Shown in pieces: positions 19,851-33,528 of a stretch of DNA of 37,918 nt (position 1 is the stretch's first letter; every line of letters begins with the position of its first letter). The notes under the pieces were generated by a model. The model saw nothing but the letters and a program-made list of their open reading frames with translations, did not search any database and was not told where the DNA came from. The stretch is taken from positions 1 through 37,918 of IMG/VR virus record IMGVR_UViG_3300005918_000057; one strand, 5' to 3'. The stretch comes from a virus. Position numbers and translations under genes: made by a program.

Positions 19851-20093
19851 ATGGAAGTTGAAGAATATTTAAAGTTTTACGGTATCTCAAAGCAACGTTT
19901 TGGAGAGTTTTGCGGAGTAACCAGAATGACTATAAATAATATTTCCTCAAAACGTAAGCTAACAAGCATACCGTTAGCTCTTAGGATAGAGGAAGTGACT
20001 AATGGTGAGGTAAAAGCTATTAATCTAGTAGCCGATTCTTGCCTTGACAGATTAAAACTAGTAGAAGCATATAATAAAAAGGTGCAAGCATGA
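19851..20093 (+). CDS. Cro/CI-type helix-turn-helix regulator
   Basis: An 80-aa protein with AAGGAGG upstream. Residues about 10-35 (GISKQRFGEFCGVTRMTINN) form a helix-turn-helix of the Cro/YdaS kind, and TSIPLALRIEEVTNGEV (38-54) is the typical following helix that reads allele-like NGEV endings. It is the first gene of the rightward early operon and divergent from the recombination operon, the classic place of Cro. No opposing CI-like repressor is seen, so a lysogeny switch is not supported. It may simply tune early transcription. Confidence 0.7.
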   Translation: MEVEEYLKFYGISKQRFGEFCGVTRMTINNISSKRKLTSIPLALRIEEVTNGEVKAINLVADSCLDRLKLVEAYNKKVQA

Positions 20094-20314
20094 GAAGGCC
20101 TTTTAAAAATCGAAAACAATTAGTAGTATCAGTAGAACAGAAATATTTCGATTTTCTTATCCATAAGTGTATCGAACTATCGGAAGCAGAAGGATACCCG
20201 ATATCTGTATCTGAAATTACCAGGCGAGCATTAGAGCATTACTTTCCGCTACCTGGCACAATGGATATGCTAGGCGAGGTTAATAACAGTAATAACAAGT
20301 ATCAAAAGAGGTAA
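20090..20314 (+). CDS. Ribbon-helix-helix-like small protein
   Basis: A 74-aa protein overlapping the Cro-like gene by four bases (ATGA). The strand QLVVSVEQKYFDFLIHKCIE and the helix SVSEITRRALEHYF (about 39-52) give the order of an RHH DNA-binding protein, although the first helix is longer than usual. The C-terminus is Asn-rich and probably disordered. Coupling to Cro suggests a second early regulator. Confidence 0.5.
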   Translation: MRRPFKNRKQLVVSVEQKYFDFLIHKCIELSEAEGYPISVSEITRRALEHYFPLPGTMDMLGEVNNSNNKYQKR

Positions 20315-20316
20315 GT

Positions 20317-20679
20317 ATGAATTTAGATTTTGAGCTAGTTGATTTTTACCCAGAGTATAGTAGCAAACATGCCACTCAGGGGACATTGCATATCTATATA
20401 AAGAGCATAGGATTAGATATTAGAGGAATTAAATATATAAGAAAGAACTCAAGCTCTTATGTATTTTTCCCCGATAAAAGAGGTTGGGATTGTGACGATA
20501 AGAAGTTTATTAGGTATTCTGTAATATCTTTTACAGACAAAGAAACATACAGCGGATTGATAACGGAGATTAGATTATTAATGGATGACTACTTTAAAAC
20601 ATGGGTAAAACCTGAAAATTTACCGACAACAAAAAAAGAAGCTTATGCTTTGTGGGTAAAAAACAACGATGTAAAATAA
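20317..20679 (+). CDS. Conserved-looking phage early protein, possibly SpoVG-like
   Basis: A 120-aa protein starting two bases after the previous stop. The segment LHIYIKSIGLDIRGIKYIRK, followed by SYVFFPDKRGWDCDDKKFIR and SFTDKETYSGLITEIR, has a strand-rich pattern I associate with short phage proteins placed in early operons, loosely like SpoVG (a nucleic-acid-binding fold). The identity is tentative. A second protein of similar style is at 26184-26462. Confidence 0.5.
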   Translation: MNLDFELVDFYPEYSSKHATQGTLHIYIKSIGLDIRGIKYIRKNSSSYVFFPDKRGWDCDDKKFIRYSVISFTDKETYSGLITEIRLLMDDYFKTWVKPENLPTTKKEAYALWVKNNDVK

Positions 20680-20696
20680 TATTGGGTTAAGAATAT

Positions 20697-21191
20697 ATGA
20701 AAATTCCAAAAAATTATAAAGATATTACTGGTAATAGATATGGAAACTTAGTTGTAGAAAAATTTTCTCATACTCAAGCAGTTAAAGGTCAAAAAAAAAG
20801 AAGCCATTGGATTTGCAAATGTGATTGTGGCAATAGAATTATATTAAGTAGGAAAATTCTTTCAGAGAGAAGGGATAAAGAAAACCTTTCGTGTGGGTGT
20901 ATTCCTAGAAACAGTACAAGTCCTAATTGCTGCAAGAGAGATTTACAAGAAGCTAAGGAAAGATGTTATTTAAATATATTGAATAAAGTAAAGCCAAACG
21001 GCGAATGTTTAGAGTGGGAGGGCTATTGTGAAAAAGGGATTACTCCAATGATTTCTTTTTTATCTAAAAAAATGTCTGTAAGAAGGTTTTTATGGATATA
21101 TAGCGGTAAAGAAATAACAGATGAATCGAAAATATCGCATTCTTGTGGAAACAATAAGTGCGTTAACATTAAACACTTAAAGGGATTATAA
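20697..21191 (+). CDS. HNH endonuclease with N-terminal zinc domain
   Basis: A 164-aa protein. Residues 8-70 (DITGNRYGNLVVEKFSH ... WICKCDCGN ... LSCGC) form a CxC-x2-...-CGC cysteine module found at the front of phage HNH proteins. The C-terminal part has ECLEWEGYCEKG, VRRFLWIYSGKEI and HSCGNNKCVNIKHL, the zinc HNH_3 pattern with His, Cys, Asn and final His, though the usual AHR reads VRR. It is probably a homing-type free-standing endonuclease inserted in the early operon. The second HNH gene at 29091 shares the N-terminal module but has a different catalytic half. Confidence 0.7.
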   Translation: MKIPKNYKDITGNRYGNLVVEKFSHTQAVKGQKKRSHWICKCDCGNRIILSRKILSERRDKENLSCGCIPRNSTSPNCCKRDLQEAKERCYLNILNKVKPNGECLEWEGYCEKGITPMISFLSKKMSVRRFLWIYSGKEITDESKISHSCGNNKCVNIKHLKGL

Positions 21192-21192
21192 C

Positions 21193-21939
21193 ATGGAATA
21201 TTTAGAGAAAACAACAGATTATAATAAATTTAGTTTGATAGAAGGAAATAGAAAAATAAATAAAAACCATCTTCAAGCACTAAAAAAATCTATTACAGAT
21301 AAAAATCTTTTACATTTAAACCCTATTTTAATTGATAGAGATTTTTTAGTATTGGATGGTCAACATAGGTTAGAAGCTTGTAAAAATCTTGACATACCAG
21401 TTTTTTATAGAATTATAGAAGATACAGAGCTAAGGGCGGTTTGGCAATTAAACACAAATAGGAAAAATTGGAAGACAGAAGATTATTTAAATTTCTATAT
21501 TGAATGTATCAAGGATAAAAATTATATAGCATTGAAGGAGTTTATAGATAAACATTCACTTACACTAATTAAAACTTTTATTTTTTTAGGATTCAAATAT
21601 AGAGCTAAAAAATATAAAGATACATTTATGCAGGGTGATTTTTGTTTTGATTTTGATATAGAAAATGTTGAAGATAGAATTTATAAATATAAAAATTTTA
21701 TTGAATTCTGTGATAGTAGAGATTTAGATGGTTTTTCTTCTTTTTTGTTAGATACTTTTATTTTAGCCTTTTTAGATTTTATTGGTAGTAAAAAGATTCA
21801 ATGGAATAAATTTTATAAACAAATAAAAGAACACCCTACTTTGTTAGTTAGGTGTTACAATAGATTTCAGTTTTTAGAAATGTTGCTTAAATTATATAAC
21901 AAAAATAGTTCGTATAAAATAGAAATATCTGATTTATAA
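21193..21939 (+). CDS. ParB/sulfiredoxin-superfamily protein
   Basis: A 248-aa protein. Residues 17-70 (IEGNRKINKNHLQALKKSI ... LDGQHRLEACKNLDIPV) carry the ParB-like N-terminal fold with the GQHRLEA motif at 56-62, whose arginine and neighbours bind nucleotide in ParB CTPases and phage nucleases. The rest is Phe/Lys/Ile-rich and unfamiliar, without a clear ParB centromere-binding helix-turn-helix. It may be a DNA-modifying or regulatory phage protein rather than a partition factor. It starts one base after the HNH stop. The gene is markedly AT-rich, more than its neighbours. Confidence 0.65.
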   Translation: MEYLEKTTDYNKFSLIEGNRKINKNHLQALKKSITDKNLLHLNPILIDRDFLVLDGQHRLEACKNLDIPVFYRIIEDTELRAVWQLNTNRKNWKTEDYLNFYIECIKDKNYIALKEFIDKHSLTLIKTFIFLGFKYRAKKYKDTFMQGDFCFDFDIENVEDRIYKYKNFIEFCDSRDLDGFSSFLLDTFILAFLDFIGSKKIQWNKFYKQIKEHPTLLVRCYNRFQFLEMLLKLYNKNSSYKIEISDL

Positions 21940-21960
21940 AGGAAAACAAAGAGGTGTAAA

Positions 21961-22224
21961 ATGGAAATAGACAGACGAGCTTCAGTAGCAAAATTAAGAG
22001 AAGATATAATAAATGTGCTGAACGACAGTGGCGTAACACCTGAAGAGGCAGCGTTTGCCTTTGGGCTTATTTTAGGCACTACCTGTAAGCCTTACGGTGA
22101 AGCGGTGAATTTATCTACTCGTGATGGTAGAAAAGCCCTAGAAGGCTTTGTGTCGGACGGTATGAAGAAGGTACTTGAAGAGATCAAAAGACAAGAATTT
22201 AAAACAAAAAACGTAGAGGGTTAG
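21961..22224 (+). CDS. Unknown 87-aa early protein
   Basis: A compact, probably helical protein with AAAGAGG upstream. It has an acidic N-terminal helix, a central hydrophobic stretch (EEAAFAFGLILGTTC, 28-42) and a C-terminal basic helix. It ends two bases before the next start. I recognise no family; the context is the small-gene part of the early operon. Confidence 0.5.
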   Translation: MEIDRRASVAKLREDIINVLNDSGVTPEEAAFAFGLILGTTCKPYGEAVNLSTRDGRKALEGFVSDGMKKVLEEIKRQEFKTKNVEG

Positions 22225-22226
22225 TA

Positions 22227-22472
22227 ATGGATAAACAAAGTAAACTTTTAGATAAAATGGGAATTAGTATAATAAATTTAATCGACGATGAAGAGCTTAA
22301 TAAATATGCATCTAAATTTGATATTATTTATACTTTAATTGGTGCTTTAGCTAGCTGTTCCGTTAGTAATAGAATAAGAACACCTATCTTGCATGGGATG
22401 ATAGATCAAATAGTTCCTAGCGTAGAAAAAATAGCATGTCAGACAAGAAATAAAGAGGTAGACGATGAGTGA
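22227..22472 (+). CDS. Unknown 81-aa early protein
   Basis: A small acidic protein that begins two bases after the previous stop and overlaps the DUF551 gene by eight bases. The middle (IIYTLIGALASCSVSN) is hydrophobic enough for a buried helix but short for a membrane span. Operon position and overlap support translation; nothing points to a function. Confidence 0.45.
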   Translation: MDKQSKLLDKMGISIINLIDDEELNKYASKFDIIYTLIGALASCSVSNRIRTPILHGMIDQIVPSVEKIACQTRNKEVDDE

Positions 22473-22683
22473 GTGGATATCAGTAGAAGATCAGTTGCCA
22501 AAAAAAGGTGAACTAGTATTGGTTTTTTTAAATACTAAAAAGTACGTAATGAGTGAGTATTGTTCATCGTGGAATAGGGGATGCGGTGCGATGTTTGTAA
22601 GCAGTAAAACATTTATAGGGTGTGATGATGAAGCAACCTATTGGAGACCATTACCCACGCCACCAGAGGTTGACGATGAGTGA
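22465..22683 (+). CDS. DUF551 protein
   Basis: A 72-aa protein opening with SEWISVEDQLPKKGELVLVF and closing with ATYWRPLPTPPE, the hallmark of DUF551: a WISVEDxLP start and a W-x-PLP-x-PP end around a beta core. DUF551 proteins are common in phage and prophage early regions and have no proven function. The start uses AGAGGTAGACG before ATG, almost the same leader as the next gene. Confidence 0.8.
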   Translation: MSEWISVEDQLPKKGELVLVFLNTKKYVMSEYCSSWNRGCGAMFVSSKTFIGCDDEATYWRPLPTPPEVDDE

Positions 22684-22837
22684 GGATTTTATAAACTTTA
22701 AGAAAGTTCCTAGACAAGATCGCCCTAAAATATTAGAGGAAATGTGTAAATTGGCTCTAAGTGATGACGAGACAGATAATGATACTAAAAACGATGCAAA
22801 TTTTCTTTTAAAGATTATGGGAGTAAAAAATGGCTAG
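22676..22837 (+). CDS. Unknown 53-aa acidic protein
   Basis: An upstream in-frame start at 22622 exists, but the AGAGGTTGACG leader before the ATG at 22676 copies that of the previous gene, so the shorter form is preferred. Its start overlaps the DUF551 stop. The protein is helical and acidic (SDDETDNDTKNDANFLLKIM). No family is recognised. It overlaps the next gene by eight bases, consistent with a tightly packed operon. Confidence 0.5.
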   Translation: MSEDFINFKKVPRQDRPKILEEMCKLALSDDETDNDTKNDANFLLKIMGVKNG

Positions 22838-23369
22838 TACAACAGTACCAAGAGTTTTTACGTTTGATGATGTAGACTGTAAAAGAGCGGAAATACCGAT
22901 ACCACCAGCTTCATGAATATTTATTGCTGATGATGATTTTATGAGAATTAGAGAGCTTGCGTTAATAATTAACAAAAAGTATCCGAAAATGATCATCGAC
23001 ACATCGAGACAAAACAGCGTAATACCATTTTATACTGGTGAGCAAGTAATGGATTATCTACCAGCGCATCAAGATGATTACATGTGTGCTTTTATCAATT
23101 ATAACATGTTATTTAAGAGTGGTGTTGAAATATTTGAAGCTTGCCGAGAGTTTAATAAAACAAAGTCATTACGTGTATTACCAACCATCGGCTTTAGCAC
23201 ATTAGCAAAAGATAAAGATGCATGCATTAAAGCTGGCATGGCTGATTTTATTACGTTGCCTTTTATTGATCAAAAGGTATGCCAAGTCATGCGTAACATC
23301 GAGTTATTGCAATGGGCTTTCCAGGGCAAGGGTTCATTAAAAACAACTGAATCATGTGCGGTAATGTAA
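22830..23369 (+). pseudogene. Receiver-domain-like gene broken by an in-frame TGA
   Basis: The ATG at 22830 has a GGGAG site and overlaps the previous gene. The frame runs 28 codons to TGA at 22914-22916, then continues open to 23369. Directly after the stop comes IFIADDDF, the first strand and acidic cluster of a CheY-like receiver, then GVEIFEACREF and KAGMADFITLPF. The phosphoacceptor place reads Asn90 (FINYNM) and the usual K-P reads L-P, so the receiver looks unable to be phosphorylated. Starting at the later ATG (22941) would lose the first strand. Either the gene is inactivated by one base change, or the stop is read through. It could be a sequence error. Confidence 0.6.
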
Positions 23370-23380
23370 GGAGGTATAAG

Positions 23381-23617
23381 ATGGCTACAGTAGCAGCTAG
23401 ATATTTAAGAAATGGATCTATAACATGGCGAGTGCAATTTAGAAGAGTAGGGTGCCCTTGGTTTTCTAAGTCTTTTACGTCTAAAAAGGAAGCAAGAGAA
23501 TATGCCATAATGCACGAAGCTTCTTTCATTGAAAATCCAGAAAAATATATTAGAGATCAAAACTTTTTAGAGGATATGCGAAAAAGAGAGTTTAAAAGAA
23601 AGCCTAGAGGTCTTTAA
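23381..23617 (+). CDS. Stand-alone integrase-arm/AP2-like DNA-binding protein
   Basis: A 78-aa protein started by a perfect AAGGAGGT seven bases before ATG; an earlier in-frame start lacks such a site. Residues 6-50 (ARYLRNGSITWRVQFRRVGC, then KSFTSKKEAREYAIMHE) match the three-stranded arm-type DNA-binding domain that begins many tyrosine integrases, also seen in AP2-like proteins. No catalytic domain follows. It may act as a small DNA-binding regulator or excisionase-like protein, or be the remnant of an integrase. It ends the early operon, followed by hairpins. Confidence 0.65.
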   Translation: MATVAARYLRNGSITWRVQFRRVGCPWFSKSFTSKKEAREYAIMHEASFIENPEKYIRDQNFLEDMRKREFKRKPRGL

Positions 23618-23628
23618 TCTAGGCTTTC
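23598..23628 (+). terminator. Perfect 11-bp hairpin at the gene end
   Basis: GAAAGCCTAGA and TCTAGGCTTTC pair perfectly around a 9-base loop that contains the TAA stop of the arm-domain gene. No T-run follows (AACTATAT), so it may protect the mRNA end or act as a first pause site before the true terminator at 23732. Confidence 0.5.
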
Positions 23629-23731
23629 AACTATATCGTATGGGATCCGTATGAGATCAAATTTATCTTGCTGTATCAAGCTTTTGATGGCAAGCAGCTT
23701 TTATGAAATTAAGTAGTTGTTAAAATGAAGA

Positions 23732-23772
23732 AGCCCCTAAAGAGCTGGTCTCTAGGGGCTATGTATTTTTTT
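23732..23772 (+). terminator. Rho-independent terminator of the early operon
   Basis: AGCCCCTA at 23732-23739 pairs with TAGGGGCT at 23753-23760, with an inner GAG/CTC pair. ATGTATTTTTTT follows on the plus strand. This is the clearest intrinsic terminator in the window and ends the 19851-23617 operon. Confidence 0.85.
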
Positions 23773-23844
23773 GCTATTTCAATCCAAGTATTACTTGAAC
23801 CAAATAACTTATCAAGTCTATGCTCAATACCAACAAAAAACAAC

Positions 23845-23935
23845 AATCAAAGATAGACTAACATATCTGTGTAATCAGCACAATATGTTATTTGAAAAAC
23901 TAAATGAAGTCTCAGACTTTAGCCTATCTTTGATT
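23845..23935. other. Branched inverted-repeat structure before the replication gene
   Basis: A 17-base arm (AATCAAAGATAGACTAA) pairs with 23919-23935 at 16 of 17 positions. Inside lie two further hairpins: ACATAT-C-TGTG with CACA-ATATGT (23861-23888) and AAGTC/GACTT (23907-23919). The whole 91 bases can fold as a three-way junction. It is noncoding, after a terminator and 60 bases before the replication gene. It may be a small RNA, a leader structure, or a DNA cruciform linked to replication. The 23618-23996 gap otherwise holds the terminator at 23732, the dyad at 23953 and no convincing gene. Confidence 0.5.
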
Positions 23936-23952
23936 TTCCTTCAACAAAAAAC

Positions 23953-23972
23953 GTAGTTAAAATATTAACTAC
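23953..23972. promoter_or_regulatory. 8-bp dyad upstream of the replication gene
   Basis: GTAGTTAA and TTAACTAC flank AATA. A TTCAAC at about 23940 and a TATTAA at 23963-23968 could be -35/-10 boxes overlapped by the dyad, so a regulator bound here would block transcription of the replication gene. The Cro-like protein is the obvious candidate but nothing proves it. Confidence 0.45.
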
Positions 23973-23996
23973 TAGCATTATAAAGGAAAGTTTACT

Positions 23997-25052
23997 ATGA
24001 CATCATATCAATTAACTTCTGAAGTTACTGCAATAGGAGAAATCAGTGTGACAGGAAATGTAATTCCCTCTCATTGGTTGCAAGCTATAACATTCGATAA
24101 CGGTAAGCCATATTTTGTAGCAGTAATGTTATTAAGTGAGATTAGATATTGGTATACACCAACTGAAATAGAAGATGAAGAGACAGGACTTGTAGTCAAA
24201 GTAAAAAACAAATTTAAGGCAGATTTTCTTCAAAGGTCTACAAAAAAATTAGCTGAAAAATTTGGTTTTTCAGAAAAACAAGTAAAGGATGCGTTACGCT
24301 TTTTAGAGAAAAAAGGGTTCATAAAACGACATTTTCGTACTATTTCATATGGTGATGGAATCGTAGCCTCTAACGTTCAGTTCATTGAGATTATTCCAGA
24401 ATCAATAAGGAACATTCAAAAAATCCCTACCTATGGACGTGCAAGTCCTAGCGCCAGGACGTGCAAGTCCGAGGGGGAGGACACCCAGGGGGGGACGTAT
24501 ACAAAGAATACTACATCTATTACTACAAATATTTATAAAGTCAATGAAGAGGCAAAGCCTCAGTCAATGCCCTCACAGAAAAAGAAGATTAAGAATCCAA
24601 TAGACTTTCTTGAAACATCAGAAGAAAAAAAATACTATCGTACTCTTATCAAGCTTGTTCCAGAGGAAGGGAAAAGTCTTGATCCTTCATCCGTGTCAGC
24701 ATGGATAAAAGAGTTTGGAGTCTCTCGAGTAAAAGAATCAGTTATTGTGTACTGGGAACAAGTAGCTAAGTCTAAAAACGATGTAAAAGTACCAATTCCT
24801 AGAGAAGCAGGGGGTTATATTCGCAATATATTAAATAATCTTACGATAAAGCCTGAAAATGATAACACTAGAATGAATAAAGAATATGCTAAAGAGCTAT
24901 CTAAAAATAACTTACATGTAAAAGCGTTGGATAAGTACGCTAAAATAGAAGCTGGCTCTTTCATTGATGAGATTTATTATAACGCACCACCAGAAGCCTT
25001 CAAAAAGTGGTTGAATGATAAGATTGAAGCATCAAAAGAATATGCTGCTTGA
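23997..25052 (+). CDS. Replication initiator-like protein (winged helix)
   Basis: A 351-aa protein with AAAGGAAAG upstream. Residues 20-125 carry a winged-helix region: NVIPSHWLQAITFDNGKPYF, a hydrophobic helix, then KKLAEKFGFSEKQVKDALRF and LEKKGFIKRHFRTI. This layout is common in phage and mobile-element replication proteins. Residues 145-180 are a low-complexity linker. The C-terminal part (about 190-351) is helical, with VPEEGKSLDPSSVSAWIKEF and REAGGYIRNILNN, possibly the part that recruits the host helicase machinery. The linker DNA contains two iterons, a G-rich run and an AT-rich stretch, as in the lambda O gene. No helicase or polymerase is encoded nearby, so host enzymes are presumably used. 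Confidence 0.7.
   Translation: MTSYQLTSEVTAIGEISVTGNVIPSHWLQAITFDNGKPYFVAVMLLSEIRYWYTPTEIEDEETGLVVKVKNKFKADFLQRSTKKLAEKFGFSEKQVKDALRFLEKKGFIKRHFRTISYGDGIVASNVQFIEIIPESIRNIQKIPTYGRASPSARTCKSEGEDTQGGTYTKNTTSITTNIYKVNEEAKPQSMPSQKKKIKNPIDFLETSEEKKYYRTLIKLVPEEGKSLDPSSVSAWIKEFGVSRVKESVIVYWEQVAKSKNDVKVPIPREAGGYIRNILNNLTIKPENDNTRMNKEYAKELSKNNLHVKALDKYAKIEAGSFIDEIYYNAPPEAFKKWLNDKIEASKEYAA
24435..24550 (+). other. Candidate replication origin (iterons + G-run + AT-rich tract)
   Basis: GGACGTGCAAGTCC occurs at 24435-24448 and 24457-24470, exactly 22 bases apart. Each copy is nearly palindromic (six of seven pairs). A shortened GGACGT is at 24493-24498. A G-rich run (24471-24494) stands out in an AT-rich genome, and an AT-rich tract (24501-24550) follows. 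The two iterons are read in different frames (GRASP versus RTCKS), so the repeat is kept at DNA level rather than protein level. Iterons plus an unwinding region inside the initiator gene is the lambda O arrangement. Confidence 0.55.
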
Positions 25053-25062
25053 TTAAAAAGCA

Positions 25063-25091
25063 TTGACGTATATATAACTTTAATGTAACAT
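25063..25091 (+). promoter_or_regulatory. Sigma-70-like promoter for the Hc1-like gene
   Basis: TTGACG at 25063-25068 and TAACAT at 25086-25091 are separated by 17 bases. RNA would start about 26 bases before the ATG at 25125. Downstream, TTAATGT repeats (25081 and 25100) and CATTAATG, a palindrome also found in the early promoter at 19791, may mark an operator. This is one of the best promoter matches in the window. Confidence 0.6.
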
Positions 25092-25124
25092 GTATTGCAT
25101 TAATGTTAACGAGAGGATAAACAA

Positions 25125-25343
25125 ATGATTAAGAAAGAATACACTAGAGAAGATAAATTTGTAGATTTAGTAAACGATATTATCATTTTACTTGCCGATA
25201 TCAGGAAAAATATACATAAGTCCATGAGTGGAAATAAAGCAGCAGCTAGGAAGGCAAGAGTCTTGCTTGTAAAGCTTGCAAAGAAAGGCAAATATTACCG
25301 AAGTCTTTCAATTATACATGTTCCAACGATCACGAAAGGATAA
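25125..25343 (+). CDS. Histone H1-like (Hc1-like) DNA-binding protein
   Basis: A 72-aa basic protein with GAGAGGA upstream. Residues 35-63 (SGNKAAARKARVLLVKLAKK, then GKYYRSLSI) closely follow the conserved core of bacterial histone H1-like Hc1 proteins: GNKAAA-x-R-x-R, KL-x-K and YR-x-x-SI. The N-terminal 34 residues are a helix as in that family. The lysine/alanine-rich tail of chlamydial Hc1 is absent. The likely role is binding and compacting DNA, perhaps phage or host chromosome. It has its own promoter and follows the replication gene. The family call is from motif memory. Confidence 0.65.
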   Translation: MIKKEYTREDKFVDLVNDIIILLADIRKNIHKSMSGNKAAARKARVLLVKLAKKGKYYRSLSIIHVPTITKG

Positions 25344-25348
25344 TAACC

Positions 25349-25438
25349 ATGCTGTTTTGTCTCCTAGGCGGCTTCCTTTACGTTGTCTTTGTCTGGGGGA
25401 TATGTTTATTTGTTTCGCAACAATTGTTTAAAGATTGA
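25349..25438 (+). CDS. Membrane peptide, 29 aa
   Basis: An ATG five bases after the Hc1-like stop, with AAAGGA nine bases upstream, opens a 29-codon frame. Residues 3-23 are almost wholly hydrophobic (FCLLGGFLYVVFVWGICLF), one membrane helix, then a short polar tail (VSQQLFKD). The tight spacing and ribosome site support it, but so short a frame can arise by chance. The function is unknown. Confidence 0.45.
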   Translation: MLFCLLGGFLYVVFVWGICLFVSQQLFKD

Positions 25439-25464
25439 TGTTATTCAAAAGGGGGAAGGAAGGC

Positions 25465-25536
25465 TAATTAAATCCTCAAATTTGAAAGATAACGCCTAAT
25501 CCATGAAAGTACATGGGTAATAATTAAAGCCTCAAA
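25465..25536 (+). repeat. Two 16-bp repeats in a 148-base noncoding leader
   Basis: TAATTAAATCCTCAAA (25465-25480) and TAATTAAAGCCTCAAA (25521-25536) differ at one base and are 56 bases apart. A small hairpin CCATG/CATGG lies between them at 25501-25516. The stretch 25439-25586 has no convincing gene and may be the leader of the next gene. Paired repeats with a hairpin between suggest an RNA-structured or protein-bound leader. Confidence 0.45.
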
Positions 25537-25586
25537 ATAAGGCAGCAAACAGCCATTACGGCTATTTTAAAACAGGAGCAAAAACA

Positions 25587-25958
25587 GTGGAAAAACAGTG
25601 GAAAGATTCTAAGGAAGTAAGAGAAGCTAGTAAATGCATTAAAGAAGTAAGAACTTTTCTTTTAGGTGAAGGTAATTATAGGTTTAATTCAATTATATCA
25701 GCTTTAATAACATTGCTAGTTGAAGGACTAGATAAAGTTAATATCGAAAAAGAAAGACAGTATCTATATTCTACTATCATAAAGAGTTTACTTGATAAAA
25801 TGGAAAATGATGATTTGACCTATGATCCTAAAACGGCTAGTGAATTTTTTACAAGTACCATTTGTATCAATAACGTTGACGATGACGTTGATGACAGAGA
25901 GAAAAAAGTTAAAAAAGCACTAGAAGCTTTGCTAAATATTTTTAAAACAGTTGAGTAA
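25587..25958 (+). CDS. Unknown 123-aa helical protein (GTG start)
   Basis: AGGAG lies eight bases before a GTG at 25587; a second GTG four codons later is less well placed. The protein is helical and charged, with a central hydrophobic patch (FNSIISALITLLVEGLDKV, about 31-49) and an acidic stretch near the end (NNVDDDVDDREKKVKKALEA). No family is recognised. It is followed two bases later by a zinc protein gene. Confidence 0.5.
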   Translation: MEKQWKDSKEVREASKCIKEVRTFLLGEGNYRFNSIISALITLLVEGLDKVNIEKERQYLYSTIIKSLLDKMENDDLTYDPKTASEFFTSTICINNVDDDVDDREKKVKKALEALLNIFKTVE

Positions 25959-25960
25959 AC

Positions 25961-26182
25961 ATGCAAGAAGAAGAAGACGAAGAGAAGATATTTCATTTCG
26001 AACACGATGGCGAAGCAAGTGGTACGCTTATACCTTTTTGCCCTCACTGCTACAGGTATTGTCGTGCAGGTTATGACGATGGATCTATTACGTTAGGCAA
26101 TAACGAAATAGATTGCGAGCATTGCGGTAAAAAATTCTGGTGTGAAGCCGATATTTCGTATTATTCACGGAGAGAGGAATAA
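25961..26182 (+). CDS. Small zinc-ribbon-like acidic protein
   Basis: A 73-aa protein with FCPHCYRYCRAGYDDG and IDCEHCGKKFWCEAD, that is two CxxC pairs about 22 residues apart, typical of a zinc ribbon. The first ten residues are nearly all acidic. It starts two bases after the previous stop. Such proteins in phages may bind DNA or host transcription factors; no specific role is visible. Confidence 0.6.
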   Translation: MQEEEDEEKIFHFEHDGEASGTLIPFCPHCYRYCRAGYDDGSITLGNNEIDCEHCGKKFWCEADISYYSRREE

Positions 26183-26183
26183 C

Positions 26184-26462
26184 ATGAAAATTACGTATTA
26201 TCACAAAAACGACGATGGAGGGGCTAGGATTGCCTCCTTTGGCATATACATCCCGCAATGGCATATGACCATAAACAATCTCTCTGTCATCAAAGGGAAG
26301 TCTTCAGGCTGGTTTGTTACCTTGCCCTCGTTTAAAGATAAAGATACTCAAGAATGGTGCAAAACTGTTGAATTTGATAAAGATGACGGAGAAAGATTTA
26401 TGAAAGCCGTTTGTGATGCCCTAGAACTATATGCTAAAGTTCCAGGGGTAACTATTGTCTAA
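26184..26462 (+). CDS. SpoVG-like small protein
   Basis: A longer frame opens at 26142, but GAGAGGAATAAC places the start at 26184, one base after the zinc-protein stop. The 92-aa product has IASFGIYIPQWHMTINNLSV, SGWFVTLPSFKDKD and a C-terminal helix (DGERFMKAVCDALELYAKV), the order of a SpoVG-like fold with its F-V-x-x-P-S strand. SpoVG homologues bind nucleic acid; in phages they sit in early operons near recombination genes. The match is moderate. Confidence 0.55.
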   Translation: MKITYYHKNDDGGARIASFGIYIPQWHMTINNLSVIKGKSSGWFVTLPSFKDKDTQEWCKTVEFDKDDGERFMKAVCDALELYAKVPGVTIV

Positions 26463-26806
26463 TGAGATTTCAAAAGTTTAAAAAGTTTAAAAAGTTTGGC
26501 ACGGCTACTACCAAATTCAAGAACGTGCCTATTGTCATCGATGGTTTTCGCTTTGATTCAAAGCTTGAAGGTCGTTACTATCAACAGCTTAAGATTAGAC
26601 AGAAAGCTAATGACATAAAGTACTTTTTACGCCAAGTCAGCATTCATCTTACTGGAAACATACGCTATGTTGTTGATTTCGTTATATTTGAGAATGATAA
26701 TTCTGTAAGGTATATCGATTGCAAAGGCTTTGAAACCCCTGTTTTTTTGCTGAAGAAAAAACTTGTTGAAGCTGAGTACCCTATTCATATCGAGGTAGTA
26801 AAATGA
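26462..26806 (+). CDS. DUF1064-like PD-(D/E)XK endonuclease
   Basis: A 114-aa protein overlapping the previous stop by one base. After a basic N-terminus with FKKFKK repeats, residues 31-115 match DUF1064: FDSKLEGRYYQQL (catalytic-type Glu), IRYVVDFVIF (Asp) and RYIDCKGFETPVFLLKKKL (Asp-x-Lys). DUF1064 proteins are phage PD-(D/E)XK nucleases, probably branch-cutting or resolvase-like, useful before packaging. It overlaps the next gene by four bases (ATGA). Confidence 0.75.
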   Translation: MRFQKFKKFKKFGTATTKFKNVPIVIDGFRFDSKLEGRYYQQLKIRQKANDIKYFLRQVSIHLTGNIRYVVDFVIFENDNSVRYIDCKGFETPVFLLKKKLVEAEYPIHIEVVK

Positions 26807-27270
26807 AAGCTTTTCCAAATATAGCATTCGATTGGTTTAGGTCGTTAGATGGACGTATTACTAGTTTAGCTTACGAACACGCTCGTAACTCAACAACTTT
26901 GTGTATTGGTATCAGAATAGAAAAATATCGTAGCGTAGAGCGATATATCGATATTGTTGGCTATGTAGAAATTACACATAATAGCGAGATCCTAAACGTT
27001 GCCATACCTGCTACCATCGAAGCTTACGACAGACAGCAAACAAAGCATACCAAAGCAAAAAAACCTATCCATAAAAAAACAACAACAGACTACCCAGACA
27101 GCTTTAACGAAAGATCAAAATTTAAACCTTTTGAGCTTATTGGCTCGCTTTGGATGAAAGATCCTAACAATGTCGGTGTAAAAAAACCATATCGACTTCT
27201 TCATGTACAAAAAAATAATTGGAAGACTTGGCTGCTAGTAGATGATCCGTTACAACACAAAGGAAATTAA
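26803..27270 (+). CDS. Unknown 155-aa protein, coupled to the nuclease
   Basis: The ATG overlaps the DUF1064 stop, so the two are translationally linked. The first half is strand-rich (RYIDIVGYVEITHNSEILNV), the middle is basic and Lys/Thr-rich (KHTKAKKPIHKKTTTDYPDS), and the end is Trp/Lys-rich. The basic linker suggests nucleic-acid contact. I do not recognise the family, and the partner role is inferred from overlap only. Confidence 0.5.
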   Translation: MKAFPNIAFDWFRSLDGRITSLAYEHARNSTTLCIGIRIEKYRSVERYIDIVGYVEITHNSEILNVAIPATIEAYDRQQTKHTKAKKPIHKKTTTDYPDSFNERSKFKPFELIGSLWMKDPNNVGVKKPYRLLHVQKNNWKTWLLVDDPLQHKGN

Positions 27271-27273
27271 ACA

Positions 27274-27558
27274 ATGGCTAAATTCGGAACATTTGAAAAA
27301 GTGGATAGTTCCAATATGGAACATACCAAAGAATATGAACCCTGTTATTATCTTGAAGATAATAAGCTAACTACCCATGAAAGAGCTTTAGTAGAAAGTG
27401 GTCGTTTAATTGGTAGCAAAATGACTGATACTACTATGAGACTTTGTATTGAATCTATTATTGAAAGTATTAAACTTGAAAAAAAAGAAGGAATTGAACC
27501 CTCAGAAATATTAAACAACCTAGAGCATACGCTAGTAAATTATATCTCCAAGGGTTAA
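27274..27558 (+). CDS. Unknown 94-aa protein, last of the right early operon
   Basis: The gene starts three bases after the previous stop with CAAAGGAAATTAAACA as leader. The product is mainly helical (ESIIESIKLEKKEGIEPSEI) and acidic. It closes the plus-strand block and converges on a minus-strand gene, ending only four bases from it. No family recognised. Confidence 0.5.
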   Translation: MAKFGTFEKVDSSNMEHTKEYEPCYYLEDNKLTTHERALVESGRLIGSKMTDTTMRLCIESIIESIKLEKKEGIEPSEILNNLEHTLVNYISKG

Positions 27559-27562
27559 TTGT

Positions 27563-27667
27563 TTATCTATGTGAGTGCTTTTGCCTCAGCTCCATTGCTT
27601 TGAAATAAAAATAGCCGAGTAAAAAACCACTTGCCGTAAATCCGACATATATAAAAAAGTCTAACAT
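27563..27667 (-). CDS. Membrane peptide, 34 aa
   Basis: AAAGGAGTATAAGT before the ATG is a strong ribosome site. Residues 2-24 form one hydrophobic helix (LDFFIYVGFTASGFLLGYFY), then a basic tail (KAMELRQKHSHR), which suggests an inside-facing C-terminus. It is last in the small minus-strand operon. Its function is unknown; a holin-like or membrane-regulator role would be guesswork. Confidence 0.6.
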   Translation of the reverse strand: MLDFFIYVGFTASGFLLGYFYFKAMELRQKHSHR

Positions 27668-27733
27668 ACTTATACTCCTTTTGTGGAAAGGTACACATAC
27701 ACCTTTTCACTATACTTTTTTCATTGTTTTTTT

Positions 27734-27765
27734 AGGGCGATTGATGTCTATAACTCAATCGCCCT
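27734..27765. other. Perfect 11-bp inverted repeat in the minus-strand operon
   Basis: AGGGCGATTGA and TCAATCGCCCT pair perfectly around a 10-base loop, just after the 59-aa gene on the minus strand. On that strand it is followed by an A-run, on the plus strand by CTTTCT, so neither side has a proper U-tract. It could reduce read-through into the last gene of the operon, or slow plus-strand transcription arriving from 27558. Confidence 0.5.
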
Positions 27766-27769
27766 CTTT

Positions 27770-27949
27770 CTAAAGTGTTGTTACGCTTGGCACTACTTCT
27801 ATCTCGTAACCTAACATTTTAATTAGCTCTAGTGTCTCTAGTGTTAACGTTATTTTGTTGGATATAGAGGCAAATATTTTCGCCTGCTCGCATACTGGGT
27901 AATACCAATCATTACCATATACGTTCTTGTGTTGTATTTGTATTTTCAT
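27770..27949 (-). CDS. Unknown 59-aa protein
   Basis: GAGGAGATATAAG precedes the ATG, a strong site, and the start lies one base beyond the previous gene's stop. The sequence has a Tyr/Trp-rich front (VYGNDWYYPVCEQAKIFA) and an amphipathic middle with ITLTLETLELIKMLGYEIEV, giving a helix-strand pattern. No family is recognised. The ribosome site and the packed position support translation. Confidence 0.55.
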   Translation of the reverse strand: MKIQIQHKNVYGNDWYYPVCEQAKIFASISNKITLTLETLELIKMLGYEIEVVPSVTTL

Positions 27950-27950
27950 C

Positions 27951-28409
27951 TTATATCTCCTCTATGAGTAGCTCTGTTAAACCCCATTTATCAGCGTTTA
28001 ACGAGTTTTCACCATTGAGGTTTGGATATTGAAAACACCATCGTTTACCAAACTTTTCAAACATCTTATCCCTCGTTTCGTTACAAGTTCCATGTATCTT
28101 AACATAATTTTTGTTGTATGGAATATGATCAACCCCAAACGAAAAATACCAATTTTTGCTCTCTTCTTTATTAGTTTTAACTATTTCCACGCAATTATCT
28201 ATAATTTCCCACGTTATACCATTATCATAATCGTGTGATCCTTTCATGAGTTCTAATACCTCAATGCATTCATCTTTTGTTAAATCTTCGTATTCTTCTA
28301 AAATATCGCTTAGATACCACTTTATTTCCATATAAGGGTTTTCTGTATTTCTATCTCTAATTCCGTCCATTATTTTTACTCCTTTATTGGTTATATTTTC
28401 TGTTTTCAT
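27951..28409 (-). CDS. Conserved-looking phage protein, first of the minus-strand operon
   Basis: An ATG at 28451 is in frame, but a strong promoter (TTGACT, TACAAT at 28479-28450) would start RNA near 28443, inside that codon region, so it cannot be used. AAAGGAG precedes ATG 28409, and a second AAAGGAG precedes ATG 28370. The 152-aa form is preferred. Residues about 104-140 (WYFSFGVDHIPYNKNYVKIH, then MFEKFGKRWCFQYP) match a motif often seen in phage proteins of unknown function. The N-terminal half is acidic and helical. Its role is unknown. Confidence 0.6.
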   Translation of the reverse strand: MKTENITNKGVKIMDGIRDRNTENPYMEIKWYLSDILEEYEDLTKDECIEVLELMKGSHDYDNGITWEIIDNCVEIVKTNKEESKNWYFSFGVDHIPYNKNYVKIHGTCNETRDKMFEKFGKRWCFQYPNLNGENSLNADKWGLTELLIEEI

Positions 28410-28449
28410 CTTAATAACTCCTTTTGCTGAGTATTTATTTATGATTATC

Positions 28450-28479
28450 ATTGTATAACAGGTTTACGTATTAAGTCAA
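28450..28479 (-). promoter_or_regulatory. Promoter of the minus-strand operon
   Basis: On the minus strand TTGACT (28479-28474) is followed after 18 bases by TACAAT (28455-28450), or after 16 by TATACA. It fits sigma-70 and decides the start of the downstream gene, since RNA would begin past the ATG at 28451. Confidence 0.6.
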
Positions 28480-28503
28480 CAAGTTTACAAAATAAATTAA
28501 TAA

Positions 28504-28532
28504 TTGACTCTACAAACCACAACGTGTTAAAA
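28504..28532 (+). promoter_or_regulatory. Possible late promoter before terS
   Basis: TTGACT at 28504-28509 and TTAAAA at 28527-28532 with 17 bases between. The -35 is good and the -10 poor (3/6), as expected for a promoter needing an activator. It lies 36 bases before the small terminase gene and back to back with the minus-strand promoter. Confidence 0.35.
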
Positions 28533-28567
28533 ACAAGGTATTACTAACCATATATAAAGGGGATATT

Positions 28568-29035
28568 ATGGCTAAGACTAAGCCTGCACCTAAAACTAAG
28601 GTAAAAAAAGTCATTGGAAGACCTGTTATTTACACGAAAGATAAAATTGAGGAGCTAGCCAAGGATCTTATACAATGGTCAAACTTAGATGATAGTCTTG
28701 TATTGCGGGAATGGTGTTGCAATCACAATCGAGGGGATGACCTTTTCTATGAACTAAGAGAAAAAGAAAAACTATATAAAATAAGTACTTTTTCGCGTGC
28801 CGTTAATTATGCACGCACCAAGATAGGTAGTAGAAGAGAGAAGCTAGCAGGTGCAGAAGGGGGTCTAGATGCTGGTATTATTAGATCAACCCTCGCAAAC
28901 TATGATAGAGAACACTTTAATAACATAAAAGAAATGAAAGCAGCAGGCGAAAAACAACAACAAGAACCTGTCATTGTTAAAGTCGTTAATTATAGTGATT
29001 CAAAAATAAAAAGTAAATCTAGCGGGGAAGATTGA
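28568..29035 (+). CDS. Terminase small subunit
   Basis: A 155-aa protein with AAAGGGGATATT upstream. A basic N-terminus is followed by GRPVIYTKDKIEELAKDLIQ and WSNLDDSLVLREWCCNHNRG, the opening helices of phage small terminases, then RREKLAGAEGGLDAGIIRST, which resembles the oligomerisation region. It would recognise phage DNA and hand it to the large subunit. The large subunit is two genes downstream, separated by an HNH endonuclease gene. Late operon start; position and motif agree. Confidence 0.75.
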   Translation: MAKTKPAPKTKVKKVIGRPVIYTKDKIEELAKDLIQWSNLDDSLVLREWCCNHNRGDDLFYELREKEKLYKISTFSRAVNYARTKIGSRREKLAGAEGGLDAGIIRSTLANYDREHFNNIKEMKAAGEKQQQEPVIVKVVNYSDSKIKSKSSGED

Positions 29036-29090
29036 TCGTCTTTGGTGTGCCTTATCACGCACCCGCTTTTAATCTATAAGGAGATTAAGT

Positions 29091-29768
29091 ATGGGAAATT
29101 TAATTGATCTGACAGGTAAAAGATTTAATCGGTTATTGGTGCTAAAAAGAGCCCCTAATCGCGGTAGGTCTACAATGTGGTTCTGCCGATGTGATTGTGG
29201 AACAGAAAAGATGGTAGGTTCTAATGTGTTAATCTTAGGAAGAACACAGAGTTGTGGATGTCTATGTCTTGAAATTAATTCTAAAAGAATGAAAGAAAAT
29301 AATATTGGTCGTAAAACTCACGGACTAACCAATCATCCTTTACGAGCTATTCGCAAGGCAATGATTGATCGGTGTTATAATAAAAACAATAAATTCTATC
29401 GCTGTTATGGTGGTAGGGATATTTTTGTTTGTGACGATTGGCGCAATTCTTTAGAATCTTTTTACAAATGGTCGATTGATTCAGGATGGAAAAAGGGATT
29501 GTCTATAGATCGTATCAATAATGATGGTGTTTATTGCCCTCAAAACTGCCAATGGATAACAGTTGGCGAAAACAGTAGAAAGCCAAGGACAATGCATAAA
29601 GGTAAACTTAAAGAGGGAATAACTGATTTTTCTATTAAAAATAAATTGCAACACAAAGTGGCTAGAAAATTACTTGATGGTGATTTTACAAGTTGTCAAA
29701 TAAAAGAATATATCTCTTTAGATAGAACAGGTCGTAGGTTTTTTTGGAGGAAATTTGAAAGAAATTAA
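29091..29768 (+). CDS. HNH endonuclease between terminase genes
   Basis: A 225-aa protein with AAGGAGATTAAGT before ATG. Residues 5-60 share the cysteine module of the HNH protein at 20697 (TGKRFNRLLVLKRA ... FCRCDCGTEKM ... QSCGCL). Residues about 90-160 carry RAIRKAMIDRCYNKNNKFYR, GGRDIFVCDDW and LSIDRINNDGVYCPQNCQWI, the D-R-x-N-N-D-G HNH type. The tail (SIKNKLQHKVARKLLDG) could be a helix-turn-helix DNA-reading part. Free-standing HNH genes beside terminases are either homing endonucleases or needed for packaging cuts. It overlaps the large terminase by 14 bases. Confidence 0.8.
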   Translation: MGNLIDLTGKRFNRLLVLKRAPNRGRSTMWFCRCDCGTEKMVGSNVLILGRTQSCGCLCLEINSKRMKENNIGRKTHGLTNHPLRAIRKAMIDRCYNKNNKFYRCYGGRDIFVCDDWRNSLESFYKWSIDSGWKKGLSIDRINNDGVYCPQNCQWITVGENSRKPRTMHKGKLKEGITDFSIKNKLQHKVARKLLDGDFTSCQIKEYISLDRTGRRFFWRKFERN

Positions 29769-31107
29769 ACTTCCTGTATTTACTCCTCGTTGGTATCAAA
29801 TTCCTCCAATGGAAGCATTGGATAGTGGTATAAGGAATGTATTGTTAATTTTTGGTCGAAGGTCTGGTAAGGATGTCTTTGCAATAAATTATATGGCAAA
29901 AGAAATGGCACGTCATGTTGGCGTTTATTTTTATATTTTACCTTCATATGCACAAGGGAAAAAAGTCATTTGGGATTCTATAACAAATGACGGTTTTAAG
30001 ATGCTCGATTATATTCCCCCTGAATTAAGAGCACATACTAATTCCCAGGAAATGAAAATAATATTGAGAAATGGTTCTGTATTTCAAATTATAGGTTCTC
30101 AGAATTATGACAGCCTAATGGGAACCAATCCTAGGATGGTCGTCTTTTCAGAATTTGCATTACAGGAAAAGAAGGCGTATGAGTATATTCAGCCTATACT
30201 TGCAGCCAACCCTAAAGCAGTGCAAATTATTGTTAGTACTCCTAGAGGGCACAATCATTTTTACGAACTCTACATGTACGCTAAAACTAGTAAATTATGG
30301 TATTGTGATCTTAAAACAAGCATTGAAACCGGTGTAGTTAGTGAAGAGTTTATTGAGCGTGAAAAGGAACGTGGGGTAGAAATAGACCATATTCGGCAAG
30401 AATATTATTGTGATTTTTCTCGCGGAATTTCAGGATCGTACTATGGTAGAGAGATAGACAAACTCGAGCTTGAAGAACGCATTATGTTTGTACCTTATGA
30501 ACAAGATATGCCAGTACACGTAACCTTTGACTTAGGTATGAATGATTTTACAGCTATAATATTTTGGCAAGTGTGCGGTCGTGAGATCCGTTATATAGAC
30601 TACTACCAGAATCACAATCGAGGCTTAGAGTACTATGCTCTAAAGATGAGAGACAAGCCCTATATATACGGTGACATATGGTTCCCTCATGACGGCAAGG
30701 TAAGAGAGCTAGGCAGTGGTATAAGTCGAGCAAAGAGATTTGAAGATCTCATGGGTATGACGGTTAATATAGTGCCCGATGTAGGACTACTTACAGGTAT
30801 AGAATACGGTCGTAAACTATTCCATCGTCTATTCATCGATGAGCAACATTGTGCCAAACCAAAAGACAAGGTAAACGGCATCGAGAAGGATTGCTTGCTT
30901 GATTGCCTAAGGAACTATCAAAAAGAGTGGGACGACAAGCGGGAAGAATATAAAGACTTCCCCCGCAAAAGCAAGTGGAATCATGGGGCTGATACACATA
31001 GATATGTAGCGATAGTAGTAGAAAAGGATCTAATGACATCAAACAATGATAGTAGTGTATCGGAGATAGTAGAACTTAATAGGTTGCACCGTAAACGTAA
31101 TATTTGA
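29755..31107 (+). CDS. Terminase large subunit (TTG start)
   Basis: A 450-aa packaging motor. It begins at TTG with GGAGG four bases upstream, inside the HNH gene. The ATPase part has Walker A GRRSGKD (residues 34-40) and a Walker-B-like segment MVVFSEFA. The nuclease part has FDLGMNDFTA (Asp259), a middle HDGK segment, and a late HGADTHRYVA with its Asp. Length is normal for podophage terminases. A TTG start inside another gene and the short spacer suggest moderate translation coupled to the HNH gene. Confidence 0.9.
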   Translation: MKEIKLPVFTPRWYQIPPMEALDSGIRNVLLIFGRRSGKDVFAINYMAKEMARHVGVYFYILPSYAQGKKVIWDSITNDGFKMLDYIPPELRAHTNSQEMKIILRNGSVFQIIGSQNYDSLMGTNPRMVVFSEFALQEKKAYEYIQPILAANPKAVQIIVSTPRGHNHFYELYMYAKTSKLWYCDLKTSIETGVVSEEFIEREKERGVEIDHIRQEYYCDFSRGISGSYYGREIDKLELEERIMFVPYEQDMPVHVTFDLGMNDFTAIIFWQVCGREIRYIDYYQNHNRGLEYYALKMRDKPYIYGDIWFPHDGKVRELGSGISRAKRFEDLMGMTVNIVPDVGLLTGIEYGRKLFHRLFIDEQHCAKPKDKVNGIEKDCLLDCLRNYQKEWDDKREEYKDFPRKSKWNHGADTHRYVAIVVEKDLMTSNNDSSVSEIVELNRLHRKRNI

Positions 31108-31147
31108 TATCAGTAAAGATAAAGTTTGAATTTAACAAGGGGTTGTA

Positions 31148-33229
31148 ATGCCTACAAGCTTAGATCTACAGAGAGACTATAACGACTACTATACTTATGG
31201 GATCAACAGTTGGCAGTCGTGCCATACTGAGATGAACACAGACATCGAATATTATCTTGGCAGGCAATTTACCGATAGCGAGCTATCCGACCTATCTGAA
31301 GAGGGAAGGCAGGCATACATCTATAACTATTGTCAGCGCAACGTGCATCTGATGTTAGGCCATCAAATGATGAACCGCAAAGGTTTAGGGGTTCAGGCAG
31401 TAGAAGGCAGTGACGAGCAGACAGCAGATATTTTTGACAAGCTCATGTCTTCAGCAGCTACTAACGGCAGCTTTTATAATGTATTCACGGATTGCTTTGA
31501 AGATGAACTCATTACAGGTTTTGGCTTGTGTTCAATGTGGATAGATTACAAAGATGATATTGTCAATGGCGATGCAAGAATACGATGTGATCCCTTTCAA
31601 ACCATAATGATAGATCCAAAATTTACGCAAATAAACCTTGAGGATTGCGGTTTTATACTTAGGCGTAACTTTGTTAACGAGGAAGAGCTTAAAGGATTAC
31701 AGCCAAGCATAAAGGTCAAAGAGTTTAAGTCAGGCGTACCAGACCAGAAATTTAATTATATGAGCTTGTCGCGTAATAACTCAGGGCAAAAGATATATGC
31801 TTATGATGAAATGTGGACACGCTCAACCAAGAAGGCATCAATAGTAATTGATAGAGTCAATGGCGATGCTAAACGATGGTTAGGCAGTGATGAGGATTTA
31901 CAGCGTAAACTAGCCTCTAACATGTTTTTAATGGAAACAAAAGTCAACATGCCTAGCGTTAAGTATACCTCTTTTGTAGGCATGGAGCAAGTATATTATG
32001 GCGATGAGCTTAGCGGTATTGACGATTATCCTTTCGTACCTTTCTTGGGTGTATACAAGCCTCAATATGAGAACTTCAAATACAAACTTCATGGCATTAT
32101 AAGACCTACTAGAGACCCCCAAGACAACTACAATAAGGTACGTAGCAAACAAGATGATATCTTAAGATCAATGCTATACTCATCATGGCTAGTTGAAGAA
32201 GGGGCATTAAAGAACGCCGAGGATGCCTTTAAAGCTGGTACTGGTCAAGTATTAGTACTTAAAAAGGGTGCTAGTATTAACTCTGTGCATCAGATACCGC
32301 ACAGAGACCTACCCCAGGGTTTGCCATATATGACCGAGCAGCTAGGAAAGGATATCTTACAGCTACCTGGCTTAAACGAAGAATCACTAGGAGTCGCTGA
32401 AGGTGGTAACACAGATATTAGTGCAAAGCTAGGACAGCAACGAGCTTCTAGCGGAGCAATAACAACACAAAAGTATTATAATAACCTTGATATCTCAATG
32501 ACTTTAGTAGGTCGTAAATTGCTTAGGATGTTTCAGGTTAATTATGATGCCGAAAAGATAAAGCGTATTACAGATATGGATCCTACCGAGGAGTTTTTTG
32601 ATAGGGATTTTGGCAAGTATGATGCAGTAGTCAAGCGACAAGATCTAACAGATACTCAAAGAGAGCATACATTTAGCCAAGCACTACAGATGAAGCAAAT
32701 AATCGGCGAAGAGTTCCCCACAAGTGTAGTTATAGATACGATGCCGATATCAGGTATAACAAATGTAAGGGAGGCGTATGAGCAGCAAGCACAGCAAAAA
32801 GCAGAGCAAGCCAAAGGAGTACAAGAGCAAGAAGAAATTAATAAGAGACTTATTAATGCCGAGATCGTTCACAAACTTTCCCTGGCAGAGCAACAGCGTG
32901 AGACTGCGGTATCTCGTCAGGCGTTGGCTATCCAACATCTTGCGAACAGTGAAGCGGATCATGCTAAAGCTACGTTAGATAACATCAAATCGGTAAAAGA
33001 AATCGAGAACATGAAGCAAGACCAGTTGATCAAGGTAATGGACTTCATCATGACATTGCAAGAACAATCAAGGATGAACGCTAAACTAGACGTCAAAGAG
33101 ACTAGCAAGCAGAGCGAGGAAGATATGATGGCAACTAACCAGATGAACAAGCAAGGGCAAGATCCCGCAGAACAGGCACAACAAATGGGGCAGCTATCAA
33201 GTTTAGCACAGCCTAACCAAGGACAATGA
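31148..33229 (+). CDS. Portal protein, P22-like
   Basis: A 693-aa protein of the P22 portal type (P22 gp1 is 725 aa). Typical features: an N-terminal W-x-x-C-H-x-E-M-N-x-D helix, NYCQRNVHLMLGHQMMNRKG, RCDPFQTIMIDP and RPTRDPQDNYNKVRSKQDDI; a Gln/Lys-rich helical C-terminus (from about 540) that corresponds to the barrel. It forms the 12-fold ring through which DNA enters and leaves. The GC-richer stretch and Gln-rich tail differ a little from neighbours. The start has AAGGGGTTGTA upstream. Confidence 0.88.
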   Translation: MPTSLDLQRDYNDYYTYGINSWQSCHTEMNTDIEYYLGRQFTDSELSDLSEEGRQAYIYNYCQRNVHLMLGHQMMNRKGLGVQAVEGSDEQTADIFDKLMSSAATNGSFYNVFTDCFEDELITGFGLCSMWIDYKDDIVNGDARIRCDPFQTIMIDPKFTQINLEDCGFILRRNFVNEEELKGLQPSIKVKEFKSGVPDQKFNYMSLSRNNSGQKIYAYDEMWTRSTKKASIVIDRVNGDAKRWLGSDEDLQRKLASNMFLMETKVNMPSVKYTSFVGMEQVYYGDELSGIDDYPFVPFLGVYKPQYENFKYKLHGIIRPTRDPQDNYNKVRSKQDDILRSMLYSSWLVEEGALKNAEDAFKAGTGQVLVLKKGASINSVHQIPHRDLPQGLPYMTEQLGKDILQLPGLNEESLGVAEGGNTDISAKLGQQRASSGAITTQKYYNNLDISMTLVGRKLLRMFQVNYDAEKIKRITDMDPTEEFFDRDFGKYDAVVKRQDLTDTQREHTFSQALQMKQIIGEEFPTSVVIDTMPISGITNVREAYEQQAQQKAEQAKGVQEQEEINKRLINAEIVHKLSLAEQQRETAVSRQALAIQHLANSEADHAKATLDNIKSVKEIENMKQDQLIKVMDFIMTLQEQSRMNAKLDVKETSKQSEEDMMATNQMNKQGQDPAEQAQQMGQLSSLAQPNQGQ

Positions 33230-33231
33230 TA

Positions 33232-33528
33232 ATGAGCGAAGAGACCAAGAGAATAGAATCAGATGAGATAGTTGAATTTATGTCGGAACTGCTCCACGAA
33301 GAATGGGTACGTTGGGCAGAGCATTTAATGGAACATGAGAACCTGAGCGAAGAACGCATTGACAAATGGCAAGAATTTTTATGTGACTACGATTTATTAT
33401 CTGAAGGAGCAAAGAACATAGACAGGGAACACGCACAGAGCATGTTTATAATGATTGTTAACAAGTTCCCCGAGTTGGTAAATGCGTTAGTGCTTAAAGA
33501 CAAAGAAGAGGATGTAAAGGATGCCTGA
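33232..33528 (+). CDS. Small conserved phage protein after portal
   Basis: ATG codons occur at 33226 and 33232. AAGGA is only two bases before the first but eight before the second, so 33232 is preferred; the first overlaps the portal stop. The 98-aa protein has EWVRWAEHLMEHENLSEERI, then DKWQEFLCDYDLLSEGAKNI and DREHAQS, a Trp/Tyr/Asp pattern common in short proteins beside portal genes of many phages. Its role is unknown, perhaps head assembly. Confidence 0.6.
   Translation: MSEETKRIESDEIVEFMSELLHEEWVRWAEHLMEHENLSEERIDKWQEFLCDYDLLSEGAKNIDREHAQSMFIMIVNKFPELVNALVLKDKEEDVKDA

Follow-up and report, generated by a model that had tools for sequence, protein, structure and literature searches.

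A tail-less Hc1-family protein encoded in the replication module of a tailed phage with likely chlamydial hosts

In Chlamydia, the C-terminal tail of the Hc1 protein (HctA) binds DNA and its N-terminus mediates dimerisation, according to published work reviewed in PMC2848022, and Hc1 is thought to condense the nucleoid during conversion of reticulate bodies to elementary bodies (PMC13317200). The full-length protein acts as a transcriptional repressor and causes E. coli nucleoids to condense (cited in PMC12619734 and PMC2848022). Hc1 in phages is already known: PF07432 proteins are present in four complete moraphage genomes, where DNA compaction was suggested (PMC12619734, 2025), and Lak megaphages are added here. 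New are the chlamydial-type tail-less Hc1, its genomic position and the host link, which were not found in the literature searched.

We analysed a viral record of 37,918 nucleotides (IMG/VR IMGVR_UViG_3300005918_000057; hereafter the window, meaning this whole stretch of DNA). The window encodes a P22-type portal, terminase, a RecT-like annealing protein with an exonuclease, HNH endonucleases, a Holliday junction resolvase, and a ParB-like protein. A sister record (L003) matches the window at 99.97% identity across 16.8 kb and contains a segment of ~1.5 kb absent from the window (L003:16772-18276) that bridges the window's end to its start, indicating a complete genome of ~39.4 kb with ends that are circularly permuted or show terminal redundancy. 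The 1,710-aa product of window positions 3752-8884 carries an LPD38 polyvalent-protein domain and is likely an internal protein that is ejected.

Table 1 Features of the window around the Hc1 gene and in the packaging region
Feature	Position	Strand	Evidence or comment
Analysed record (window)	1-37,918		37,918 bases
Replication initiator/DnaD-like protein	23997..25052	+	phrog_270, E 2.8e-15; adjoins Hc1 upstream
Promoter-like TTGACG-17-TAACAT	25063..25091	+	9/12 positions; at chance level
Ribosome-binding-site-like GAGAGGA	25111..25117	+	Sequence; 7 nt upstream of ATG
Tail-less Hc1-family protein, 72 aa, ATG start	25125..25343	+	Pfam match at residues 14-63 (25164-25313)
Core with highest conservation, residues 36-63, GNKAAARKARVLLVKLAKKGKYYRSLSI	25230..25313	+	Turn and basic helix 2; alignments, charge pattern, model
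SpoVG-like protein	26142..26462	+	Sub-threshold Pfam; distant relatives right after Hc1 in G234 and G235
Holliday junction resolvase	26462..26806	+	phrog_190, E 9e-28; same replication/recombination module as Hc1
Terminase large subunit	29755..31107	+	Closest relatives in Chlamydiota genomes
P22-type portal protein	31148..33229	+	PF16510, E 3e-73; closest relatives in Chlamydiota genomes

Family assignment, charge and predicted fold

The initial annotation had singled out an Hc1-like ORF, whose coordinates proved correct and which has an ATG start and, in the upstream GAGAGGA, a good ribosome-binding site (Table 1), and its proposal of a phage-encoded Hc1-family protein was borne out by profile searches. 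The 72-aa ORF scored 29.1 bits against PF07432 (E 8.9e-7; 28.6 bits in the genome search), above the curated gathering cut-off of 23.5 bits, and Hc1 was the sole Pfam family matched, even at E<=10. A profile made from Hc1s of Chlamydiota genomes, with the window protein left out, gave 44.1 bits, compared to 3.1 bits for the next window ORF and a top score of 10.9 bits among 5,000 shuffles of the protein's residues. The 50-residue core aligned without gaps with chlamydial Hc1s and related phage proteins, and the GN[KR]xA turn followed by a basic helix with R45, K53, R59, and S62 is present in the window protein. Against NCBIfam HctA (NF051889), the ORF reached 32.4 bits, below the equivalog cut-off of 100; with the Lys/Ala-rich tail missing as well, HctA equivalog status was rejected. 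PHROGs gave no significant match for this ORF, tblastn of the 72-aa protein against 50,697 phage records returned zero matches, a PDB sequence search with the protein found no solved Hc1 structure, and Rfam gave no match. A viral scan seeded by a hand-written Hc1 consensus recovered the sister record alone.

As the initial annotation had stated, the Lys-rich tail is absent: nine residues, one of them K/R, follow the core in the window protein, whereas the median across 61 chlamydial proteins is 63. Tail-less stand-alone forms also include every Bacteroidota Hc1 found (57-58 aa, annotated 'histone H1') and a few in Chlamydiota (L093 in G042 and L101 in G082), while nearly all host copies are tailed. 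An AlphaFold2 model based on 24 sequences predicts a two-helix hairpin (helices 8-34 and 38-65; pLDDT 89.7). Basic residues 38, 43, 45, 53, 56, and 59 are common to phage, chlamydial, and Bacteroidota Hc1s, and on helix 2 most recurring basic residues lie on one side with a hydrophobic side opposite (helical moment only p ~0.05). The window protein is strongly basic (net charge +10.7), whereas the other podophage Hc1s described below carry +2.6 to +4.6, indicating that a more basic core does not generally compensate for tail loss.

Helical hairpins are a very common fold, and the protein might be an unrelated basic hairpin resembling Hc1 by chance. A structure search with the model yielded hundreds of unrelated hairpins, all of them generic helical ones at Z ~8, under the kinship level for such folds. 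This reading is nevertheless close to refuted by the score above the Pfam gathering threshold, the 44 bits set against a shuffle maximum of 10.9, the ungapped 50-residue alignment with retained GNKAA turn and R/K positions, and Hc1 relatives at a similar site in related phages. Judged from its sequence, the window gene is very probably a homologue of the Hc1 N-terminal domain and a member of the Hc1 family.

Genomic position and origin of the phage Hc1

In the window, the Hc1 start codon lies 72 bases past the stop of the replication initiator, and the 243-base gap downstream of the gene means that a single operon is not required. A promoter of its own, which had been ascribed to the Hc1 ORF in the initial annotation, found no support, as the region contains 42 sites matching as well as its 9/12 positions and 41.9 are expected from shuffles.

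Viral scans seeded with Hc1 alignments recovered further phage Hc1s. Tail-less Hc1 was found in three more tailed phages with related portals, namely G234 (L118; portal 32% identical to that of the window), G235 (L119; 29%), and L175. In G234, Hc1 starts ~30 bases past a DnaD/O-like replication initiator, and in G235 one ORF separates it from a replication initiator of a different type. Hc1 overlaps the next ORF in both genomes, suggesting that the two are probably co-translated; these next ORFs resemble each other, and that of G235 distantly resembles the window's SpoVG-like protein. The L175 gene is preceded by a RusA-type resolvase. Taken together, the four neighbourhoods place every podophage Hc1 in a replication/recombination module, with nearby initiators that come from different families. 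Hc1 is rare in the phage family, being present in one of 79 other portal-bearing viral loci (L175 only), 25 of which cover 8 kb or more on the upstream side of the portal, and in none of the related phage contigs within chlamydial assemblies.

In a tree of 58 Hc1 cores, the four podophage proteins formed one clade (92/90) joined to the chlamydial Hc1s of G107 and G001 (93/98), a grouping of moderate strength given 57 columns and a long branch; branches in this tree are long and its bootstrap had not settled. The Hc1s of Lak megaphages, L120, and L123 grouped with Bacteroidota (100/100), and L125 was unplaced. Pairwise comparisons point the same way for the window protein, with Smith-Waterman scores of 98 against the best chlamydial and 68 against the best Bacteroidota protein; in a pairwise search, the G234 protein was closer to the chlamydial lineages G020 and G221 (48-50%). 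By these sequence comparisons, the window Hc1 is probably derived from chlamydiae, through one or several captures in the family.

The scans also recovered Hc1 in other phages. Fifteen Lak records matched, among them Prevotella phage Lak-C1 (L112:1510-1689) and Lak-B5 (L113:1432-1611), with unannotated 59-aa proteins of the Bacteroidota type. Three phages without a window-like portal encode Hc1-family proteins of 56-66 aa (L120:7995-8195, L123:2667-2837, and L125:4815-4994).

Link to chlamydial hosts

The initial annotation had read Hc1 as a hint to the host, and this idea gained support from terminase and portal relatives in Chlamydiota genomes and from the position of the phage proteins beside chlamydial rather than Bacteroidota Hc1s in the tree. 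Relatives of the terminase were found in 19 of 232 Chlamydiota genomes (best 43% identity, 344 bits) and of the portal in 11 of 232 (best 31% identity, 367 bits). The best scores among 50,697 phage records were 281 bits for the terminase and 81 bits (~21% identity) for the portal; since the programs behind the two sets of scores differ, the gap serves as a guide rather than an exact measure. Several of these contigs, 35-41 kb in length, have portal, coat, and tail genes in common with the window. Those of phage size (G196:C1, G073:C102, G162:C388, G188:C2, and G115:C19) resemble complete phages that ended up in the same bins as the assemblies and are candidate tailed chlamydial phages, although binning is fallible.

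Stronger host evidence than these contigs comes from G048:C1 (L059), a 125-kb contig with ordinary chromosomal genes and a degraded family remnant at ~19.1-24.2 kb, which consists of a terminase and a truncated portal adjoining an IS3-like transposase. The RecA encoded by this contig shares 95% identity with that of Chlamydiales G001, compared to 69-77% with those of other Chlamydiota. A broken portal piece is also carried by G107, and the Hc1s of G001 and G107 are the nearest to the podophage clade in the tree. The proposed host match by CRISPR spacers did not materialise: comparison of window positions 20000-37918 with the 232 Chlamydiota genomes gave neither CRISPR-spacer-like nor near-identical DNA, the best long match being 71% over 237 bp and short ones background-like. 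Chlamydiota were the sole phylum searched for portal and terminase relatives; the specificity of the host link comes from the prophage remnant, the Hc1 tree, and the lower scores in the phage collection. Within this scope, the similarities suggest that the host is likely an environmental chlamydia.

To our knowledge, cultured chlamydial phages are small Microviridae and no cultured tailed phage of Chlamydiota is known; our literature search found none either. With portal relatives in 11 of the 232 Chlamydiota genomes and one remnant in a chlamydial chromosome contig, the phage family provides concrete candidates for tailed chlamydial phages.

Possible roles of the phage Hc1 and comparison with known systems

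The basic helix 2, the strongly basic window protein, and the replication-module site lead us to favour, tentatively, a predicted function as a small nucleoid-associated protein used in phage replication. A lineage of small tailed phages of environmental Chlamydiota probably took up the Hc1 hairpin/dimerisation domain and kept it without the Lys-rich tail. Two hairpins would pair, helix 2 would contact DNA (or RNA) through its conserved basic side, and the protein, produced together with the replication initiator, could organise or protect phage DNA in replication and recombination, for which HU/IHF in other phages provides an analogy. Its place next to a replication gene suggests that the phage may reuse a host chromosome protein during DNA copying. 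Counted against this role are the weakly basic other copies, the downstream gap in the window, the rarity of Hc1 in the phage family, and the published assignment of DNA binding in Hc1 to the tail that is absent here (PMC2848022).

Pairing of the phage protein with host Hc1 on phage DNA would also be possible and was handled as a rival. In the main rival reading, less probable but serious, phage Hc1 would act as a dominant-negative inhibitor that pairs with host Hc1 into mixed dimers unable to condense the nucleoid, so that the cell is held in the growing reticulate-body state which the phage needs and elementary-body conversion is blocked. Dimerisation by the N-terminus with DNA binding by the tail (PMC2848022) and the condensation ascribed to Hc1 during this conversion (PMC13317200) would suit such an inhibitor, as would the loss of the Lys-rich tail in 4/4 podophage copies when nearly all host copies have one. 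The potential target is widespread, with an own Hc1 in 111 of 116 Chlamydiota genomes searched, the location among replication genes points to expression ahead of packaging, and the other phage copies are weakly basic. However, the conserved basic face argues that the core itself contacts nucleic acid. Bacteroidota, for which a tailed partner is not known, have tail-less Hc1s, and this form is also found in Lak phages; the window protein, moreover, exceeds host cores in basicity. That the tail-less phage Hc1 serves as an anti-differentiation factor, poisoning host Hc1 dimers and preventing condensation to the elementary-body state, is in our judgement unlikely.

Two further roles appear less plausible still. 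Phage Hc1 made early could condense or silence the host chromosome, in keeping with the transcriptional repression and the condensation of E. coli nucleoids described for full-length Hc1 (cited in PMC12619734 and PMC2848022), but DNA binding is assigned to the absent tail and no feature points to host DNA as the target, which makes such a host shut-off improbable. Compaction of phage DNA within the virion, as proposed for jumbo-phage PF07432 proteins by the authors of PMC12619734, seems very improbable here. The initial annotation had also raised compaction of phage DNA, against which the loss of the tail assigned to DNA binding counts as well. All four copies lie in the replication/recombination module, away from head genes (in the window, also from packaging genes), and the majority of the phage family is without an Hc1 gene. 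P22-type phages are, moreover, generally considered to package bare DNA via the portal, which also counts against virion compaction.

Irrespective of its role, the phage Hc1 is a natural test of what the N-terminal domain does without the tail. Because Hc1 occurs in phages of both phyla in which it was found, and usually in the form of the host phylum, the Hc1 type carried by a phage may serve as a host marker.

Compared to chlamydial Hc1/HctA (PF07432, NF051889), the window protein has a 50-residue segment that aligns gap-free with the N-terminal domain and is predicted to be a hairpin, and the same GNKAAAxxxR turn and basic second helix. It differs by lacking the Lys/Ala-rich C-terminal DNA-binding tail, by an identity of at most ~40%, by a score far under the HctA equivalog cut-off, and by a gene that lies on a phage genome and adjoins a replication initiator. 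The short Bacteroidota 'histone H1' proteins (~58 aa) and the Lak Hc1s are likewise tail-less stand-alone domains, in Lak also phage-borne, but they have a GNKAAG turn and another lead-in, form a separate branch (100/100), and belong to Bacteroidota hosts. The H1-like PF07432 proteins of moraphages (PMC12619734) are likewise Hc1-family members on tailed-phage genomes, whereas moraphages, compared here by description rather than sequence, are large (jumbo) phages of another lineage. With P22-type (podovirus-like) portal phages, the window has the portal (PF16510), terminase, and recombination genes in common; the nearest portals in phage records are, however, only ~21% identical, and its nearest relatives are uncultured phage contigs, some of them in Chlamydiota genomes.
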